Source: an uncultured Pelagibacteraceae bacterium
GTDB taxonomy: Bacteria; Pseudomonadota; Alphaproteobacteria; Pelagibacterales; Pelagibacteraceae
Length of the DNA stretch: 64,000 nucleotides
Direction of reading: 5' to 3'
Assembly (NCBI GenBank): GCA_902557775.1
Contig: CACEBD010000001.1
Coordinates: 62,001 to 126,000 of the forward strand
Shown here: positions 26,301-60,690 of the stretch, piece after piece
How the letters are laid out: each line of letters begins with the position of its first letter
Position numbering within the stretch: position 1 is the first letter of the stretch
Notes under the pieces: generated by a model
The model's database searches: none
What the model was told of the DNA's origin: nothing
What the model saw: only the letters and a program-made list of their open reading frames with translations
Made by a program: the position numbers and the translations under genes

Positions 26301-26420
26301 TTTTATTACGTCCAACACCTATCGCACTAGTGGGCGAACCTTCGCTGACTAGTGTCGACACTCTTGTTTTCAAGAGCACCGCAAAAACATGTGTATTTGC
26401 GGAAAGTTTGTGGAAACTAC
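26301..26420 (-). ncRNA. Structured 5' leader RNA of ffh (ffh-motif candidate)
   Basis: This stretch between ffh and dapF is visibly richer in G and C than its surroundings and packed with hairpins. Stems on the plus-strand coordinates are 26325-26331 with 26348-26354 (7 bp), nested 26334-26337 with 26342-26345, 26361-26366 with 26371-26376 (6 bp, 4-base loop), 26379-26385 with 26396-26402 (7 bp), and 26405-26409 with 26414-26418. A cis-regulatory RNA motif upstream of ffh has been described in Pelagibacter by comparative genomics, and position and character fit it. Autoregulation by SRP components is inference. It lacks the GGAA-loop core expected of 4.5S RNA. Confidence 0.65.
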
Positions 26421-43435: not shown

Positions 43436-45293
43436 TTCTTATGAAGCTTAAAAATCCACCAAATGATAGCATGATAACTGAAATCCAGATCCAAATCATA
43501 AGTGGTTTTTCTTGAAATTTAATATTGTAATAATCTGAACGATCTATGTTGCTCATTGTTAAGTAATAATCTCTAAAAAAATTTGTTTTAATTGAAGCTT
43601 CGTAAGTTAAAGTTTGAGGATTATCATAAATTCTAATCTCTGGATTTAAGGTCCTTTTTTTGTTGGTAGATAAATCACTTATTTGAATTTTGCCTATAAC
43701 AGCTTTATAATTGTCATACTGTTGTAATTTTAAATCTTTAAGTTCAAAATTATAATTGTCAATTTTTTTTGTTTCACCTAATTTTAAATTAAAATCTTTT
43801 TCAATTGAAAAATTATGATTTAATCCTATAAAAAAAATTAAAAAACCGAAAGAAAAATGTGAGATGATTCTCGCAAAATTAATCTTTGGTTTTTTAAATG
43901 CGTCCAAGATAGTTGAAATAATCAAAAATACCGATGAAATAATGATTAAATTGGAAATTAGACTATAACTTTTAAAGAAATAAGTGATAATAAAATTTAC
44001 AGCTATTGCCCCAGCAATTATTTTTAATAAATCTTTAAAATTTAAATATTCATTTTTTATCCATTTCACTTTCGGACCAACAGCCATAAAAAATAAAAAG
44101 ATAATTACAACAGGTGTTATCACCGAATTATAAAAAGGAGGACCGACTGAAATTTTATTGTTTGAAATTGCGTCAGTAAAAATTGGGTATAAAGTTCCTA
44201 ATAAAACAGTAATTAGGTAAAACATCATAAACCAGTTATTTATCAAGATGAATGTTTCTTTGCTATTAGAGTTGATTTGATCATTTGTTGGTTTGTATTT
44301 AGCGAATAAAATATAAACCGATGCAAATATCATTAAGCTTAGAAATGATAAAATATAAATTCCTCTAGAGGGGTCATTGGCAAATGTATGAACAGAATTA
44401 AGTATTCCGGATCTCACTAAGAAGGTTCCTGTCACACTTAAAGTAAATGTTAACAAACAAAGTATGATCGACCAAAAATAAAGTATATTTCTTTTTTCTA
44501 AAACTAATAGTGAATGCAACAATGCAGTCATAGCAAACCAGGGAAGTAAAGATGCATTTTCAACAGGATCCCAAAACCAAAATCCGCCCCAACCTAACTC
44601 GTAATAGGCCCAAATTGATCCAACTAGAATTCCAAGTGTTTGAAAAGACCAAGAAATGATTACCCAACTTTTAATTGATTGTGCAAAAGATTTACCAGAA
44701 TAATTTGTAATTACAGAAGCCATAGCTGCGGAAAAATATATAGAGGACCCCACAAAACCCACATAAAGTAATGGAGGGTGAATAGCTAAAGCTGGATCTT
44801 GTAAAATAGGATTTAATCCAAGCCCTTCTTTTGGAACAGGGCTTATAGAGCTAAAAGGATTCGAATTAAATAAAATAAAAAATAAAAAACCTAAAATTAA
44901 AATATTTTGAATGATTAAAGTATTTATTCTGTAATTTTTTGGATGATTTTTATTTGTAATAAGAAACAAAAATGAAAAAATTGTCAAAATAATTACCCAA
45001 AGCAATAAACTACCCTCATGATTTCCCCAAGTTCCGGAAATTTTATAGAAAATTGGTTTTAGTGTATGCGAGTTCTGGTAAACGTTTATTAAAGAAAAAT
45101 CGGACACCATGAAAGCTCCGACTAATGTGAAAAAACAAATTAAAATAGTTGTGCTTTGTAGCAAACTAATTTTATAAATACTTTTGAATATCATATTGTT
45201 AGTTTTTTTTAGACAAGCAAACGATTGGAAGATAATAAAAAAAGTAAATAAAATACTTAAAAGTAATAAAAAATTTCCAGTATTACTCAGCAT
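43419..45293 (-). CDS. ccmF: Cytochrome c heme lyase subunit CcmF
   Basis: This large membrane protein attaches heme to apocytochrome c. The protein has 624 residues and many membrane segments. The tryptophan-rich heme-handling motif is WGGFWFWDPVENASLLPW, and conserved histidines are in GNHEGSLLLW and IHPPLLYVG. It overlaps ccmE and ccmG. Confidence 0.96.
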   Translation of the reverse strand: MLSNTGNFLLLLSILFTFFIIFQSFACLKKTNNMIFKSIYKISLLQSTTILICFFTLVGAFMVSDFSLINVYQNSHTLKPIFYKISGTWGNHEGSLLLWVIILTIFSFLFLITNKNHPKNYRINTLIIQNILILGFLFFILFNSNPFSSISPVPKEGLGLNPILQDPALAIHPPLLYVGFVGSSIYFSAAMASVITNYSGKSFAQSIKSWVIISWSFQTLGILVGSIWAYYELGWGGFWFWDPVENASLLPWFAMTALLHSLLVLEKRNILYFWSIILCLLTFTLSVTGTFLVRSGILNSVHTFANDPSRGIYILSFLSLMIFASVYILFAKYKPTNDQINSNSKETFILINNWFMMFYLITVLLGTLYPIFTDAISNNKISVGPPFYNSVITPVVIIFLFFMAVGPKVKWIKNEYLNFKDLLKIIAGAIAVNFIITYFFKSYSLISNLIIISSVFLIISTILDAFKKPKINFARIISHFSFGFLIFFIGLNHNFSIEKDFNLKLGETKKIDNYNFELKDLKLQQYDNYKAVIGKIQISDLSTNKKRTLNPEIRIYDNPQTLTYEASIKTNFFRDYYLTMSNIDRSDYYNIKFQEKPLMIWIWISVIMLSFGGFLSFIRNAKNN

Positions 45294-45711
45294 TTTCTTT
45301 CATGATATTTTTTAACTCTGGGGGCATATAATTTTCGTCATGTTTAGCAAGAATTCTTTCCGCAATAAAAAATTTTTTATCTTGTAATTTCCCTTCTGCT
45401 ACTACTCCTTTGCCTTCAGCAAACAAGTTTGGTATTGTACCTTTAAAACTTACCTCTACCTCATTTTTAAAATCAGTAATTATAAATCTTATTTCCTGAT
45501 CTTTAATATTAAGTGTATTTTTTTTTACCATTCCGCCAACTCTCATTTTTTTATTATAGTTAATATCTTGGCTAATTTTTATATCTGTAGGTGAATTAAA
45601 GTATAATATATTTTTGTTAAGAGCATTTAAAATCAAAAAAACTCCAATTATAGATAATAATAAAAATATTGATAAAAGAGAGGCTCTTTTTTTTACTTTT
45701 TTAGGAAGCAT
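45283..45711 (-). CDS. ccmE: Heme chaperone CcmE
   Basis: This periplasmic heme chaperone holds heme covalently before transfer to CcmF. The protein has 142 residues with an N-terminal anchor, an OB fold (MRVGGMVKKNTLN), and the heme-binding LAKHDENYMPPE, with H124 and Y128. Confidence 0.96.
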   Translation of the reverse strand: MLPKKVKKRASLLSIFLLLSIIGVFLILNALNKNILYFNSPTDIKISQDINYNKKMRVGGMVKKNTLNIKDQEIRFIITDFKNEVEVSFKGTIPNLFAEGKGVVAEGKLQDKKFFIAERILAKHDENYMPPELKNIMKENAE

Positions 45712-45719
45712 TAAATGCT

Positions 45720-45953
45720 TTAGATAGTTTTATTATAAGAAGATAAGATTTTTGATGCAATTTTAGAATTTTCGATAACTATTTTTTTCTGCTCAATTGG
45801 AAGTTCGTTAATTTCTTTAGCGAATTCCTCTTCGTACTTTCTTAAAGTTTTACGAGTTTTGTAATAAAAAATCCCACAAACTAAAAAAGTTAGAATAAAG
45901 GATGACCACACAAAAATTCCGTAACCGTTCATTAAAATTAAATCACTAATCAT
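45720..45953 (-). CDS. ccmD: Heme exporter protein CcmD
   Basis: This is a small membrane protein needed to release holo-CcmE from CcmC. The 77 residues have one membrane helix (about 12-30) and a charged cytoplasmic tail. The NGYGIFVWSSFILTFLV segment resembles the CcmD pattern. Its start overlaps the ccmC stop by 4 bases. The call depends largely on position. Confidence 0.85.
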   Translation of the reverse strand: MISDLILMNGYGIFVWSSFILTFLVCGIFYYKTRKTLRKYEEEFAKEINELPIEQKKIVIENSKIASKILSSYNKTI

Positions 45954-46657
45954 AATCTTTTTAAATTTTTTTTCTTGATTCTAATGATTTCTGTCTTGTA
46001 TTTCATTAGAAAAATTAACGCACAATACATTATTAATACAAAAAACATAAGTAATAGTGGCATTAACATTGAAGAATGTATTGTGCTTGATCCTATTATT
46101 TTTATGCTAGCAGGTTGATGAAGAGTACTCCACCATTCAACAGAGTATTTTATGATTGGTATATTTATTAATCCAAATGCAGCAATAATACTTGAAATTT
46201 TATTAGCTCTGTCTTCATCTGAAACTAATTTATGAATAAAAATAAATGCTAGATAGAAAAGTGCTAATATAAGCATAGAAGAAATTCTTGCATCCCAAGC
46301 CCAAAAAGTTCCCCAAGTAGGCTTTCCCCAAATAGATCCAGTAACAATTGCAATACAAGTAAACATCAAACCAATAGGTGCAATACTTTTAGTAATTATT
46401 GTGAGGTGTTTAATTTTAAAAATAAAATTAAAAATTGAGAATAGTGCTATACATGAAAAAGAAGCTAAACTAATCCAAGCGGCAGGTACATGTACATACA
46501 TAATTCTAACACTGTCTCCTTGCAAATAATCTGGTGGAGAAAAAACTAGCGCAAATGATAAACCAGCGATTAGTAATGCGAAAAAAATTGAATTAATAAA
46601 ATTCGTCAATTTTTCTATCCAAGTAAAAATGTTGTTATTGTAAAAAAAATTAAACAT
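45950..46657 (-). CDS. ccmC: Heme exporter protein CcmC
   Basis: This membrane protein loads heme onto CcmE. The protein has 235 residues with six membrane segments. The WWD motif WGKPTWGTFWAWDARISSML and flanking histidines (VHVPAAWISL, WWSTLHQPASI) are present. It is the first ccm gene of the cluster; ccmA and ccmB are not in the window. Confidence 0.96.
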   Translation of the reverse strand: MFNFFYNNNIFTWIEKLTNFINSIFFALLIAGLSFALVFSPPDYLQGDSVRIMYVHVPAAWISLASFSCIALFSIFNFIFKIKHLTIITKSIAPIGLMFTCIAIVTGSIWGKPTWGTFWAWDARISSMLILALFYLAFIFIHKLVSDEDRANKISSIIAAFGLINIPIIKYSVEWWSTLHQPASIKIIGSSTIHSSMLMPLLLMFFVLIMYCALIFLMKYKTEIIRIKKKNLKRL

Positions 46658-46696
46658 CTGCCTTAACTACTATAATATTTTTTTTTTGTGAAGTTC

Positions 46697-46831
46697 TATT
46701 ATAAGCCCAACTGAGAACTGGAGGGAGTAATATAAGAAGTTTATTCCCAATTGGGCTAAAACATCATTAAGATAGCTGCTCTCTGTGTCACATATTTGAA
46801 TAAATGGTGTTTTATTTTAGGCGACAGCTAA
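46697..46831 (+). ncRNA. Candidate structured RNA of unknown class between ccmC and hspQ
   Basis: This 174-base gap holds two nested hairpin domains. Domain 1 pairs 46704-46710 with 46751-46757 (7 bp) around 46723-46730 with 46741-46748 (8 bp including a G-U). Domain 2 pairs 46773-46778 with 46825-46830 and, inside, 46789-46791 with 46807-46809 and 46794-46797 with 46802-46805. The G-U pairs (46727 with 46744, 46793 with 46806) form only in plus-strand RNA, hence the strand call. No terminator is seen. A leader of ccmC or 3' end of hspQ on the minus strand remains possible. It was compared by eye with 6S and tmRNA features and does not match. Confidence 0.4.
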
Positions 46832-47155
46832 TTAATTTGAAATTTTGAAGTAACTTGAGCCTTTTTTTCCTGAAAAAATTTCTTCAATTAAAGGATGCTT
46901 AAGAGGTTCATTAGATTTATCTAATAATAAATTTTGTTCAGAAACGTATGCTTCGTAAGTTACTTCATTACTTTCAGCTAATAGATGATAGAAAGGCTGA
47001 TCTTTTCTTGGTCTTACCTCTTTTGGTATTGATTGATACCATTCTTCGGAATTATTAAATTCAAAATCTACGTCGTAAATAACACCCCTAAAATCGAAAT
47101 GTCGATGCTTAACAACCTCACCAATTGAAAATTTTGCTTTATTACTTGTTGCCAT
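46832..47155 (-). CDS. hspQ: Heat shock protein HspQ / hemimethylated DNA-binding YccV family
   Basis: This is a small protein of the HspQ (YccV) family, which affects protein turnover and was first noted for binding hemimethylated DNA. The protein has 107 residues. Characteristic parts are FSIGEVVKHRHFDFRGVIYDV and QPFYHLLAESNEVTYEAYVS. It stands alone, divergent from ispZ. Confidence 0.9.
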   Translation of the reverse strand: MATSNKAKFSIGEVVKHRHFDFRGVIYDVDFEFNNSEEWYQSIPKEVRPRKDQPFYHLLAESNEVTYEAYVSEQNLLLDKSNEPLKHPLIEEIFSGKKGSSYFKISN

Positions 47156-47232
47156 TCTTAATAGTTAATAATATTTTTTTTAAAATCAATATCTAATTTG
47201 TTTAAATTTAATAATATGTTAGTCTCTTTATT

Positions 47233-47778
47233 GTGAATAAGTCATTTTTAAAATTTGTTACTGACTTTGGGCCTTTATTAATTTTTTTCACGATCTATTA
47301 TAAAACTGGAAACAATTTATCTGCTGCTATTCCACCATTAATTATTTCAACTATTATTGCTATTGCAATTATGTATTTTGTAGAAAAGAAAATTCCTTTT
47401 GTTCCATTGATAGGGGGAGTAATTATTACACTTTTTGGGGGCCTTACTCTGTATTTTGATAATCCTATATTTATTTATATGAAGCCAACAATAGTTAATA
47501 TAATTTTTGCAGGAATATTAATTGCAAGTAAAGTTTTTTTTCAAAAAAATTTTCTAAAATTTTTTTTAAAAACTGCTTTTCAACTGCAAGAAATTGGATG
47601 GGACAAGTTGAATTTTAGATGGGCTTATTTTTTTATTTTTTTAGCAATATTGAATGAAATTGTTTGGAGGACCCAACCTGAAGCTACTTGGGTAAACTTC
47701 AAAGTGTGGGGTATTTTACCTATTACTTTTATATTCACAGCTTCTCAAGTACCTTTAATTAAAAAATATAAATTATGA
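47233..47778 (+). CDS. ispZ: Septation protein A family membrane protein (IspZ/YciB)
   Basis: This is an inner-membrane protein implicated in septation and envelope integrity. The protein has 181 residues with about five hydrophobic segments. Family motifs are FGPLLIFFTIYYKTG and LNEIVWRTQPEATWVNFKVWG. The start is GTG at 47233, since no earlier ATG exists and the sequence matches from there. It overlaps the DUF2794 gene by 4 bases. Confidence 0.92.
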   Translation: MNKSFLKFVTDFGPLLIFFTIYYKTGNNLSAAIPPLIISTIIAIAIMYFVEKKIPFVPLIGGVIITLFGGLTLYFDNPIFIYMKPTIVNIIFAGILIASKVFFQKNFLKFFLKTAFQLQEIGWDKLNFRWAYFFIFLAILNEIVWRTQPEATWVNFKVWGILPITFIFTASQVPLIKKYKL

Positions 47779-48122
47779 AAAAAATTAAATTGATCATTAA
47801 TAACGATTTTAAAAAAAATGAAAGAGAGAGATTTTTTATTAAGAGAGAATTGCAATGTATTTTAAATCTATATGCGAAAATGGTCTCTAATGGCTCTTGG
47901 AAAGATTACTCTCTCTCAACTGGAACAAGAGAAGTTTCATTTGATGTTTATCAAAGATCATCTGATAAACCCGTGTTAAGAATTACAAAAAACTTAAAGC
48001 CGAATTATTTTAATGAAAAATATTTAATCAAAGATAAAGACGGGAAAGTGATTAAAAAGTCAGAAAGTTTAAATCTCCTAATAGATAGAACTAGCTGGAA
48101 TAGATTAAAAATTATTAAATAA
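47775..48122 (+). CDS. DUF2794 family protein
   Basis: This is a conserved alphaproteobacterial protein of unknown function, 115 residues, soluble and basic. The family pattern is seen in FIKRELQCILNLYAKMVSNGSWKDYSL followed by VSFDVYQRSSDKPVLRI. It is likely co-transcribed with ispZ (ATGA overlap). It ends directly against the convergent Bax-inhibitor gene. Confidence 0.82.
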   Translation: MKKIKLIINNDFKKNERERFFIKRELQCILNLYAKMVSNGSWKDYSLSTGTREVSFDVYQRSSDKPVLRITKNLKPNYFNEKYLIKDKDGKVIKKSESLNLLIDRTSWNRLKIIK

Positions 48123-48866
48123 TTATCTTCTTTGACCGAAAAGTCTTAAAAGCATGATGAAAAGATTTATAAAATCAAGGTAAAGCGTTAAAGCTCCCAT
48201 AACAGCTTTCTTGCCCATCAGCTCACCACTATCGCTTACTAAATACATATTTTTAATTTTTTGAGTATCGTAAGCAGTTAAACCAACGAAAATTAAAACC
48301 CCTAAAATAGAAATCACAAAATACATCATTGCTGATTTCATAAATAGATTAACTAAAGATGCAATTATAATTCCAATTAGGCCCATCATTAAAAAAGATC
48401 CTAACTTAGTTAAATCTCTTTTAGTAGTATAACCATAAATACTCATTGCTCCAAAAGTTCCTGCGGTAATAAAAAAGACTCTTGCTATACTAGCTTCAGT
48501 GTAAATTACAAAAATTGATGAAAGTGATAAGCCCATCAATCCTGCAAAAATCCAAAAAACTGTCTGTGCTTTAGAAGCACTCATTTTAGCAATGCCAAAA
48601 CTCATATAAAAAACTACTCCTAATGGTGCTAACATTACAACCCAAGCTAAACCTGTATTATAAAGTGAATTACCTAATGGAGATAAAATTAATGGCTCAA
48701 AAGACTGTACTGCAAATTTTGCTGTTAATAGAGCAACAAATCCTGTTAAGACTAAAGCCGAAGCCATGTAGTTATAGACTTTAAGCATGTAAGAACGCAG
48801 ACCCTGATCTATAATTGCTTCAGAAGCTGACGAACGAACTGTAGATCTTTGTTTATTAATTTCCAT
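48123..48866 (-). CDS. Bax inhibitor-1/YccA family membrane protein
   Basis: This integral membrane protein belongs to the BI-1 (TMBIM) family, whose bacterial members can leak calcium or interact with FtsH. The protein has 247 residues and seven hydrophobic segments. The GLTAYDTQKIKNMYLVSD segment holds the paired aspartate region, and YLDFINLFIMLLRLFG is the C-terminal signature. It is a single gene, divergent from the aldo/keto reductase. Confidence 0.92.
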   Translation of the reverse strand: MEINKQRSTVRSSASEAIIDQGLRSYMLKVYNYMASALVLTGFVALLTAKFAVQSFEPLILSPLGNSLYNTGLAWVVMLAPLGVVFYMSFGIAKMSASKAQTVFWIFAGLMGLSLSSIFVIYTEASIARVFFITAGTFGAMSIYGYTTKRDLTKLGSFLMMGLIGIIIASLVNLFMKSAMMYFVISILGVLIFVGLTAYDTQKIKNMYLVSDSGELMGKKAVMGALTLYLDFINLFIMLLRLFGQRR

Positions 48867-48911
48867 AACTGATTATATAAGTTTTTTTAAATACTTTTCA
48901 ATAGGCAAAAA

Positions 48912-48940
48912 TTGACCTAAAAAACTGTTATAATTATTAA
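48912..48940 (+). promoter_or_regulatory. Candidate sigma-70 promoter of the aldo/keto reductase gene
   Basis: TTGACC (48912-48917) and TATTAA (48935-48940) are 17 bases apart, with a TATAAT just inside at 48929-48934. Transcription would begin close to the ATG at 48947, giving a very short or absent leader. Confidence 0.4.
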
Positions 48941-48946
48941 GTTTTT

Positions 48947-49984
48947 ATGAAATTTAAAAAATTGGGCACTACAGATTTAGATGTGAGCTTAATATGTTTA
49001 GGAACTATGACATGGGGCACACAAAATACTGAAAAAGATGCTTTTGAACAAATGGATTACTCCTTAAGTGAGGGGATTAACTTTTTTGACACTGCAGAAC
49101 TTTACTCGGTCCCCCCTAACTCGGACTCTTATGGCAAAACCGAAGTGATGATTGGAAATTGGTTTGAAAAAAGAAAAAACAGAAAAAAAATAATCTTAGC
49201 TTCAAAAGTTGCAGGCCCAGGATGTAGTTGGATAAGAGGTGGAGGAAATAATTTTAATGAAAAAACAATTGGAACAGCAATCGATGGAAGTTTAAAAAGA
49301 TTAAAAACAGATTATATAGACTTATACCAATTGCATTGGCCCGAAAGATCAACCAATTACTTCGGCAAAAGAGAATATGCTATTGATAGTGATGAAGGTG
49401 AATGGAATAGCTTTGAAAGCGTTCTACAGGCCCTAGAAAAATTTATCAAGAGCGGAAAGATTAGATACATTGGCATGTCAAATGAAACTCCATACGGTCT
49501 TTCAAGATACATTGAATTATCTAAAAGTAAAAAATTACCTAGGATGATGTCGGTACAAAACCCTTACAATTTAGTTAATAGAACTTATGAAATCGGAATG
49601 TCTGAAATTTCAATAAGAGAAAAATGTGGACTTCTAGTTTATTACCCTCTTGCTACAGGTGCGCTTTCTGGAAAATATAGAAATGGTAAAATGCCAAAGA
49701 ATTCTAGACAAGCTTTGTTCAAAGGTTGGGAAAGACATCTTAATCCTTTAGCTATGAAAGCTTACGAAGAATATTATAAATTAGCTAAGGAAAGTAATTT
49801 GACAATGGCTCAGCTAGCACAGGCTTTTGTAAACACAAGACCTTTTGTTACGAGTAATATAATCGGGGCAACAACAATGGAGCAATTAAAGGAAAATATA
49901 GATAGTGTAAATATTAAACTATCCGATGAAATTTTAAATAAGATTGATGTTATCCATAATAATAACCCAAATCCATCTCCTTAG
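48947..49984 (+). CDS. Aldo/keto reductase (Tas-like)
   Basis: This NADPH-dependent oxidoreductase has a TIM-barrel fold, 345 residues. The catalytic Asp-Tyr-Lys-His set is in FFDTAELYS, ILASKV and YQLHWPERST. The NADPH region is ASNIIGATTMEQLKENI-like (SNIIGATTMEQL). It is closest to the E. coli Tas type in length and motifs. The substrate is unknown. Confidence 0.88.
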   Translation: MKFKKLGTTDLDVSLICLGTMTWGTQNTEKDAFEQMDYSLSEGINFFDTAELYSVPPNSDSYGKTEVMIGNWFEKRKNRKKIILASKVAGPGCSWIRGGGNNFNEKTIGTAIDGSLKRLKTDYIDLYQLHWPERSTNYFGKREYAIDSDEGEWNSFESVLQALEKFIKSGKIRYIGMSNETPYGLSRYIELSKSKKLPRMMSVQNPYNLVNRTYEIGMSEISIREKCGLLVYYPLATGALSGKYRNGKMPKNSRQALFKGWERHLNPLAMKAYEEYYKLAKESNLTMAQLAQAFVNTRPFVTSNIIGATTMEQLKENIDSVNIKLSDEILNKIDVIHNNNPNPSP

Positions 49985-50029
49985 AATACAAAGCATTGAA
50001 ATAGATAATTTTTAGTATAAAAATAAAAT

Positions 50030-60278: not shown

Positions 60279-60393
60279 GTTGTATTTAAAAAACCCTTTA
60301 TTTCCTTGTCTTATAGCATTTCAAATTGGTTTTGGGGTCCTTTTTTCTCTTTTAATTCAACTCATAATCAGTATGCTCCCCTGCAATAAGAGT

Positions 60394-60411
60394 ACTTTTT
60401 ACGTAAAAAGT
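60394..60411. promoter_or_regulatory. Perfect 18-base palindrome upstream of the symporter genes
   Basis: ACTTTTTAC is followed at once by its inverse complement, ending 21 bases before the DUF4212 ATG, in the 154-base divergent region 60279-60432. It could be a regulator binding site or the start of a hairpin in the leader. A strong ribosome binding site (AGGGGGAA, about 60423-60430) follows. Apart from these, the gap shows only T-rich stretches and no convincing promoter pair. Confidence 0.5.
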
Positions 60412-60432
60412 TAAAAATAAATAGGGGGAAAT

Positions 60433-60690
60433 ATGTCAAATAAAGACGCATATTGGAATAAGACCAAGAACCATATGATCGTAACATTGGTTCTTTGGGC
60501 TTTCTTCTCATTAGTGATCTTCATGTTTGGTTCAGAACTGAACACGATGTCTTTTCTTGGCTATCCACTAGCATATTACATGACTGCGCAAGGTTCACTT
60601 CTTGCCTTTGTGATAATTTTGTTTTGGACTGCAAATAAACAAGAGAAAATCGACGAAGAACATGGTTTCTCAGAAAGAGAGGATGACTAA
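60433..60690 (+). CDS. DUF4212 small subunit of a sodium:solute symporter
   Basis: This 85-residue protein has two membrane segments (about 15-35 and 45-66) and an acidic tail. It belongs to the DUF4212 group that is always next to VC_2705-type sodium:solute symporters and is thought to be their small subunit. TAG/TGA geometry: its stop overlaps the symporter ATG by one base. A strong AGGGGGAA binding site precedes it. Confidence 0.88.
   Translation: MSNKDAYWNKTKNHMIVTLVLWAFFSLVIFMFGSELNTMSFLGYPLAYYMTAQGSLLAFVIILFWTANKQEKIDEEHGFSEREDD

Follow-up and report, generated by a model that had tools for sequence, protein, structure and literature searches.

The gaps between genes in SAR11 genomes are very short in general, and the locus studied here raises the question of what occupies the 174 bases (46658-46831) that separate hspQ from ccmC in an uncultured member of the Pelagibacteraceae. 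In the window, i.e., the whole analyzed stretch of 64,000 nucleotides, 52 of the 63 gaps between hand-listed genes are shorter than 50 bases and five are of 100 bases or more; the hspQ-ccmC gap is thus indeed unusual here, as a preliminary sequence-only reading had stated. The longest gap between listed genes of the window (60279-60689, 411 bases) lies between divergent frames and has no Rfam match. Both neighbors of the hspQ-ccmC gap are encoded on the minus strand. The downstream one, ccmC (45950-46657; Pfam Cytochrom_C_asm, E 1.9e-31), is the gene led by the element and is followed by ccmE-, ccmF-, thioredoxin- and ccmH-like frames (Pfam), a CcmD match there being below its cut-off. The upstream one is hspQ (46832-47155; Pfam YccV-like, E 1.4e-29). 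Gap-like DNA was found in 21 of 36 relatives from the same genus (E <1e-14) and in none of 24 genomes from a different family within the order, and ccmC- and hspQ-like frames flank it in 22/22 loci, including the locus of the window itself. Gene direction and GC skew turn near ccmC/hspQ (window 44000-50000; G086:C1, about 284-292 kb), and a replication origin may lie near.

The structured element in this gap is one minus-strand hairpin, with the same orientation as hspQ and ccmC. In the RNA, the 5' arm (46743-46757), recognized by fold, covariation, and pairing in aligned sequences, pairs with the 3' arm (46704-46718), and the two enclose a loop of 24 nt (46719-46742) with a conserved motif, CUCCCU, at 46722-46727, just 5' of the 3' arm (in context, ACUCCCUCC, 46720-46728). 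The strand was assigned on 22 aligned sequences, those of the window and 21 relatives: the 14-bp core helix (46705-46718/46743-46756) is complete in 22/22 as minus-strand RNA and in 0/22 as plus-strand RNA. Folding energies agree, as the minus strand of 46670-46845 reaches -32.8 kcal/mol against a shuffle mean of -22.3 kcal/mol (z -3.0; 2 of 200 shuffles as good), whereas the plus strand, at -32.2 against -31.6 kcal/mol (z -0.16; equaled or bettered by 80 of 200 shuffles), does not differ from its shuffles; the predicted leader alone, on the minus strand, yields z -2.1 against shuffles.

The sequence-only reading had proposed here a two-domain plus-strand RNA, possibly antisense to its neighbors, with three helices; what was found instead is the single hairpin, sense to both genes. 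All three helices can be written in the sequence, but as a plus-strand fold they do no better than shuffles. The outer one (46704-46710/46751-46757) does belong to the real hairpin, but its seven pairs are uninformative about the strand: owing to variation in the outermost pair, they are complete in 11/22 sequences as plus and 9/22 as minus RNA. The inner one (46723-46730/46741-46748) competes with the core helix and is complete in 6/22 sequences on the plus and 0/22 on the minus strand, while the second domain (46773-46778/46825-46830) is complete in just 2/22 on either strand. The sequence-only reading had wobble pairs working only in plus-strand RNA; across the 22 sequences, the core helix contains 270 Watson-Crick cells, 38 A.C cells, which become G.U only in minus-strand RNA, and no plus-strand G.U cell.

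Hairpins of the same type recur across the family. The best 80 of 577 relatives in a CcmC scan were combined with the 22 loci above, giving, after removal of 6 duplicates, 96 distinct ccmC leaders, and a hairpin around the C-rich motif was present in 96/96 of them, as well as in 20 further ccmC leaders, mostly from other genera. Its stem is 12-19 bp long, its loop 17-38 nt with the motif on the 3' side, and its distance to the ccmC start codon is 27-54 nt in the 96 leaders. The loop motif of these leaders is nearly fixed (CUCCCU in 83, CUCCCCU in 12, and AUCCCU in 1), while the stems are wholly different between clades (GCCCAATTGAGAAT; CTGATCAAGAGTG; GTCTGGTTTGGAG; GTCCAGTTTGAAG; CCTAACTGAG).

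Covariation was analyzed in two sets. In A3 (47 of the 96 leaders, <93% alike), 86.2% of 893 cells were paired, against 34-48% in slid controls, and 17 of 19 pairs showed two-sided changes; in A4 (35 hand-chosen sequences from at least 13 genera, CUCCCCU variants left out; CUCCCU in 35/35 loops), 91.7% of cells were paired, against 29-49%, and all 17 pairs showed two-sided changes. In both cases, what is counted is sequences rather than independent events. None of 500 shuffles reached the covariation score or the share of paired cells in either set. The count of pairs with two-sided changes was less extreme, being reached by 15 of 500 shuffles in A3 and 20 of 500 in A4, and that of further pair types was reached by 128 of 500 in A3 and 0 of 500 in A4. 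Alignment of the rows relied on sequence, with no fitting to structure; the hairpins, however, were cut out by a complementarity search (best helix round TCCC), which favors pairing. This bias was addressed by the slid controls and by a control on the own genome, where 30 of the 42 WCTCCCTC sites were examined; the element scored 33 and the next best site 18. When G.U and A.C cells were scored alike, 218 sense G.U cells stood against 56 A.C cells, with 81 of the 96 leaders favoring the ccmC sense, 3 the other strand, and 12 tied; the 20 further leaders gave 34 against 5. The covariation that the sequence-only reading had called for is strong, yet it belongs to the minus-strand hairpin and not to the fold then proposed. 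Given the short gaps and the few classical regulators of SAR11 bacteria, selection must act on a hairpin that persists through at least 13 genera with its stem rewritten.

Upstream of the hairpin lies a conserved 28-bp block (46784-46811, minus strand), AACA-N3-TT-N4-CAAA-N-CT-N2-G-N-CA-N-A, which is matched at 13 or more of its 21 fixed positions by 113 of 115 sequences; L080 and L136 fall below this threshold and are left out of the following counts (n=113). The block occurs as a single site per genome in 6/6 genomes, the reversed control giving none. Nine nt after the block comes a conserved TA, the start of a predicted -10 element (TATCTT, 46769-46774, minus strand; first position T in 110/113, second A in 106/113, sixth T in 82/113), and the hairpin begins 19-31 nt past the block. 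No canonical -35 element was found in the block at 16-18 nt from the TA, and the block might serve as the site of an activator, overlying the -35 region. A consensus promoter scan offers another pair, GTGACA/AATGAT, with 8 sites in the region against 3.8 expected. This arrangement places the predicted start of the transcript around 46757-46765, level with the 5' arm or immediately ahead of it. Since the block lies upstream of the hairpin, transcription is expected to begin close to the hairpin and to continue into ccmC. The remainder of the predicted leader (46658-46703, minus strand) is A/T-rich and contains no Shine-Dalgarno-like word. In three loci (L129, L131, and L138), AAACTTTGTCACAT, in full or lacking its first bases, stands right after the stem and resembles a part of the upstream block of other leaders, CTTTGTCACA; it is possibly a second binding site.

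The block, the hairpin, and ccmC form a linked unit that is independent of hspQ. Among the 115 ccmC-match loci, which hold some genomes twice (e.g., L113 and L125), hspQ is found upstream on the same strand in 106; the nine others comprise six sister-family loci, L145 (a distant match in another gene), L131 (cut by the contig end), and L133. In L133, a frame for an ABC-transporter membrane protein takes the place where hspQ would be, and in L040 a methyltransferase frame is inserted between hspQ and the element; the block, hairpin, and ccmC are still together in both. The hspQ gene is thus a neighbor and not an obligatory part of the unit. The conserved RNA structure is sense to, and directly upstream of, the same gene, as expected of a cis-acting mRNA leader, and we conclude with high confidence that the element is an RNA on the minus strand that leads ccmC, with which it is predicted to be transcribed.

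Comparison with Rfam 15 gave no match at gathering score at the element, either in the window or in 8 further loci, nor any in G086 up to E 5, so a known Rfam family was rejected, and the sequence-only reading was right in placing here a structured element of no familiar class. No covariance-model match to 6S RNA, tmRNA, or SRP RNA families was obtained at the element, and none to known riboswitches; the element consists of a single hairpin, in which a short loop motif is almost fixed. The best sub-threshold alignment, to SpF41_sRNA (RF02435; 20.6 bits against a gathering score of 52, E 0.64), lies on the plus strand, opposite to the hairpin, and has another fold. A known leader motif, that of ffh (RF01793), is present elsewhere in the window (26317-26369, minus strand).

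Leader RNAs in long gaps have been described from the same lineage, namely, the rpsB, rpsL, ffh, and SAM-V motifs of Meyer 2009 (PMC2704228). The hspQ-ccmC gap is absent from Table 1 of that paper, where the lowest GC content listed for a gap is 26.4%; this is above the values of the hspQ-ccmC gap in G086 (182 bp, 23.1%) and G134 (181 bp, 24.3%). Another gap survey sought structured RNA in a SAR11 genome, that of HIMB5 (PMC6429828); its main text does not contain "ccm", and its Table S1 may list this gap. The main texts of PMC2704228, PMC5069720, PMC8632094, PMC11109978, and PMC6429828 do not contain ccmC. No ccmC leader RNA in SAR11 was found in the literature searched, as judged by titles or the start of abstracts.

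With a limit of E 1, model R1 of the element found matches, the weakest probably fortuitous, in 107 of 147 family genomes and none in the other 40, some of which are explained by draft genomes and by other stems. In genera g8, g10, g12, and g15, the ccmC leaders read directly show the hairpin with other stems, and R1 gave no match in these genomes or matches at E 0.08 and above. Ten weak R1 matches were read, six from the sister family (f2) and four from the own family: nine are located within long open frames, and the remaining one is a hairpin resembling a terminator where a frame ends; the weak extra matches (E 0.008-1) were taken as chance. Model R2 yielded one clear match in each of 10/10 genomes from 5 genera, at least 4 of which had contributed rows to the model, with the next match at another place at E 0.35. 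Together with the site control in the own genome, this led us to reject second genomic copies. In L168 (G089:C10), a part of the loop with CTCCCT is repeated downstream of the hairpin, possibly a local duplication. A search with R2 across 142 genomes of the class (E 0.05) matched two, both from the family; this negative result is a weak one, because the stems change freely. In f2, about 30-35 nt separate ccmC from the open frame that precedes it in 6/6 genomes read, and this frame was CcmB by Pfam in 2/2 tested; no such leader fits in between.

As to function, we give about an even chance to a cis-acting leader hairpin at the 5' end of the ccmC mRNA, the loop of which would be bound by a trans-acting factor. 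In this mechanism, the dedicated conserved promoter would start the transcript at or just before the hairpin, the stem would present the loop and protect the 5' end, and the transcript would continue past the hairpin to the ccmC start codon. The C-rich loop would be the binding site of the factor, most likely a cold-shock-type single-strand RNA-binding protein, and the bound factor would set the stability or translation of the ccmC mRNA when cytochrome maturation must change, e.g., in sulfur or iron stress. In the own genome, the motif is no more frequent than its reversed control (42 against 45 sites) and so gives no clue to the partner of the loop. The cold-shock proposal comes from the general binding habits of these proteins and from an inverse trend of the cspL and ccmC mRNAs. 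According to the tables of a study of sulfur limitation in HTCC1062 (PMC5069961), the ccmC mRNA (SAR11_0287) is 10.35-fold up in sulfur-limited and 2.18-fold in control stationary phase, both relative to exponential phase, and differs 4.74-fold between the two stationary phases; the table with ccmC also shows the cspL mRNA decreasing to 0.07. The other ccm genes are absent from both tables, so the ccm operon may not respond as a whole to sulfur limitation; a ccmC leader goes unmentioned by the authors in the parts of the paper available here (PMC5069961). CspE and CspL have been proposed as post-transcriptional regulators in this bacterium (PMC2864753), and we infer their link to the hairpin.

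The main rival explanation is a trans-acting small RNA: the hairpin RNA would be released, either by processing or by an end ahead of ccmC, and would pair through its C-rich loop with G-rich ribosome-binding sites. We consider it unlikely, if the most serious of the alternatives. An independent small RNA had been suggested by the sequence-only reading, but the linkage of promoter, hairpin, and ccmC favors the ccmC leader. Such a role would be consistent with the poor conservation of the stretch between hairpin and ccmC in distant loci and with ccmC being the sole ccm gene in the sulfur tables (PMC5069961), and it has a precedent in the rhizobial anti-Shine-Dalgarno loop RNAs SmelA075/SmelA099, also from alphaproteobacteria, in which a C-rich loop (CCUCCUCCC) is conserved and the stems vary (PMC3927594). 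These RNAs, however, are described as built of three or four hairpins and as present in several copies in a genome (PMC3927594), while the ccmC element has one hairpin, one clear copy, and the loop CUCCCU, and is located ahead of ccmC; it thus does not show the rhizobial pattern of CCUCCUCCC in several hairpins and copies. All clear matches read in context stand ahead of ccmC, and a scan of 46600-47240 with loops of 3-8 detected no terminator-like site. Moreover, Hfq (PF17209) was not found in 6/6 family genomes (G000, G134, G063, G100, G069, and G065), the control search being positive in Caulobacter and E. coli, and a Shine-Dalgarno-like word precedes just 10 of 55 hand-listed window genes, against 5.1 expected at random places. 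With Hfq undetected and few Shine-Dalgarno-like words present, a leader read by a protein is more likely than a classical Hfq-dependent anti-Shine-Dalgarno RNA.

A simpler role, which we regard as improbable, is that of a plain 5' stabilizer shielding the ccmC mRNA from decay, the loop having no partner. The predicted start at the hairpin and the conservation of the stem as structure, not as sequence, would fit it; a nearly fixed C-rich motif, kept in a loop of otherwise variable length and content, would not be needed for it.

Quite improbable is a function at the DNA level, as a protein-binding inverted repeat or a hairpin of single-stranded DNA, perhaps tied to a nearby replication origin. 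Here one could point to the GC skew of G086, a complete relative, which in the stretches sampled turns near the element from mostly negative to mixed or positive, to hspQ being YccV-like, a Pfam family of hemimethylated DNA-binding proteins, and to the strand-biased wobbles, which a folded single DNA strand could also explain. Yet the stems differ wholly between genera, unlike an operator, hspQ is dispensable for the linkage, and the window shows no excess of the DnaA-box pattern (9 against 11.4 expected).

An attenuator or a terminator of hspQ is very improbable. The hairpin is stable and lies between co-directional genes, and some distant members carry short T runs a few bases after the stem, but the scan described above, which covers loops of 3-8, detected no G+C-rich stem directly followed by a T run, by which a Rho-independent terminator was rejected; besides, the promoter-like block sits between hspQ and the hairpin, and the element persists without hspQ. 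Finally, the two-domain antisense RNA on the plus strand, whose helices can be drawn and whose inner helix has a plus-strand G.U and is complete in 6/22, has next to no probability and was rejected, given its z of -0.16, the absence of the complete core helix on the plus strand (0/22), and the rarity of its second domain (2/22).

The ccmC leader is thereby the preferred reading of the element. SAR11 bacteria have few classical regulators, and the leader is a concrete candidate for the control of ccmC, a gene reported to rise about 10-fold in sulfur starvation, in bacteria for which the search found no Hfq. Surveys of gaps based on G+C content can miss AT-rich structured RNAs. Tentatively, and with more doubt than confidence, we suggest that the element represents an undescribed class of regulatory RNA of the Pelagibacteraceae, a stress-responsive leader occurring where ccmC stands apart from ccmB, with a CUCCCU loop read by an Hfq-independent factor, either a cold-shock protein or an RNA partner. 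If this is true, one of the most abundant groups of bacteria in the ocean, poor in regulators, would control the maturation of cytochrome c post-transcriptionally under nutrient stress.
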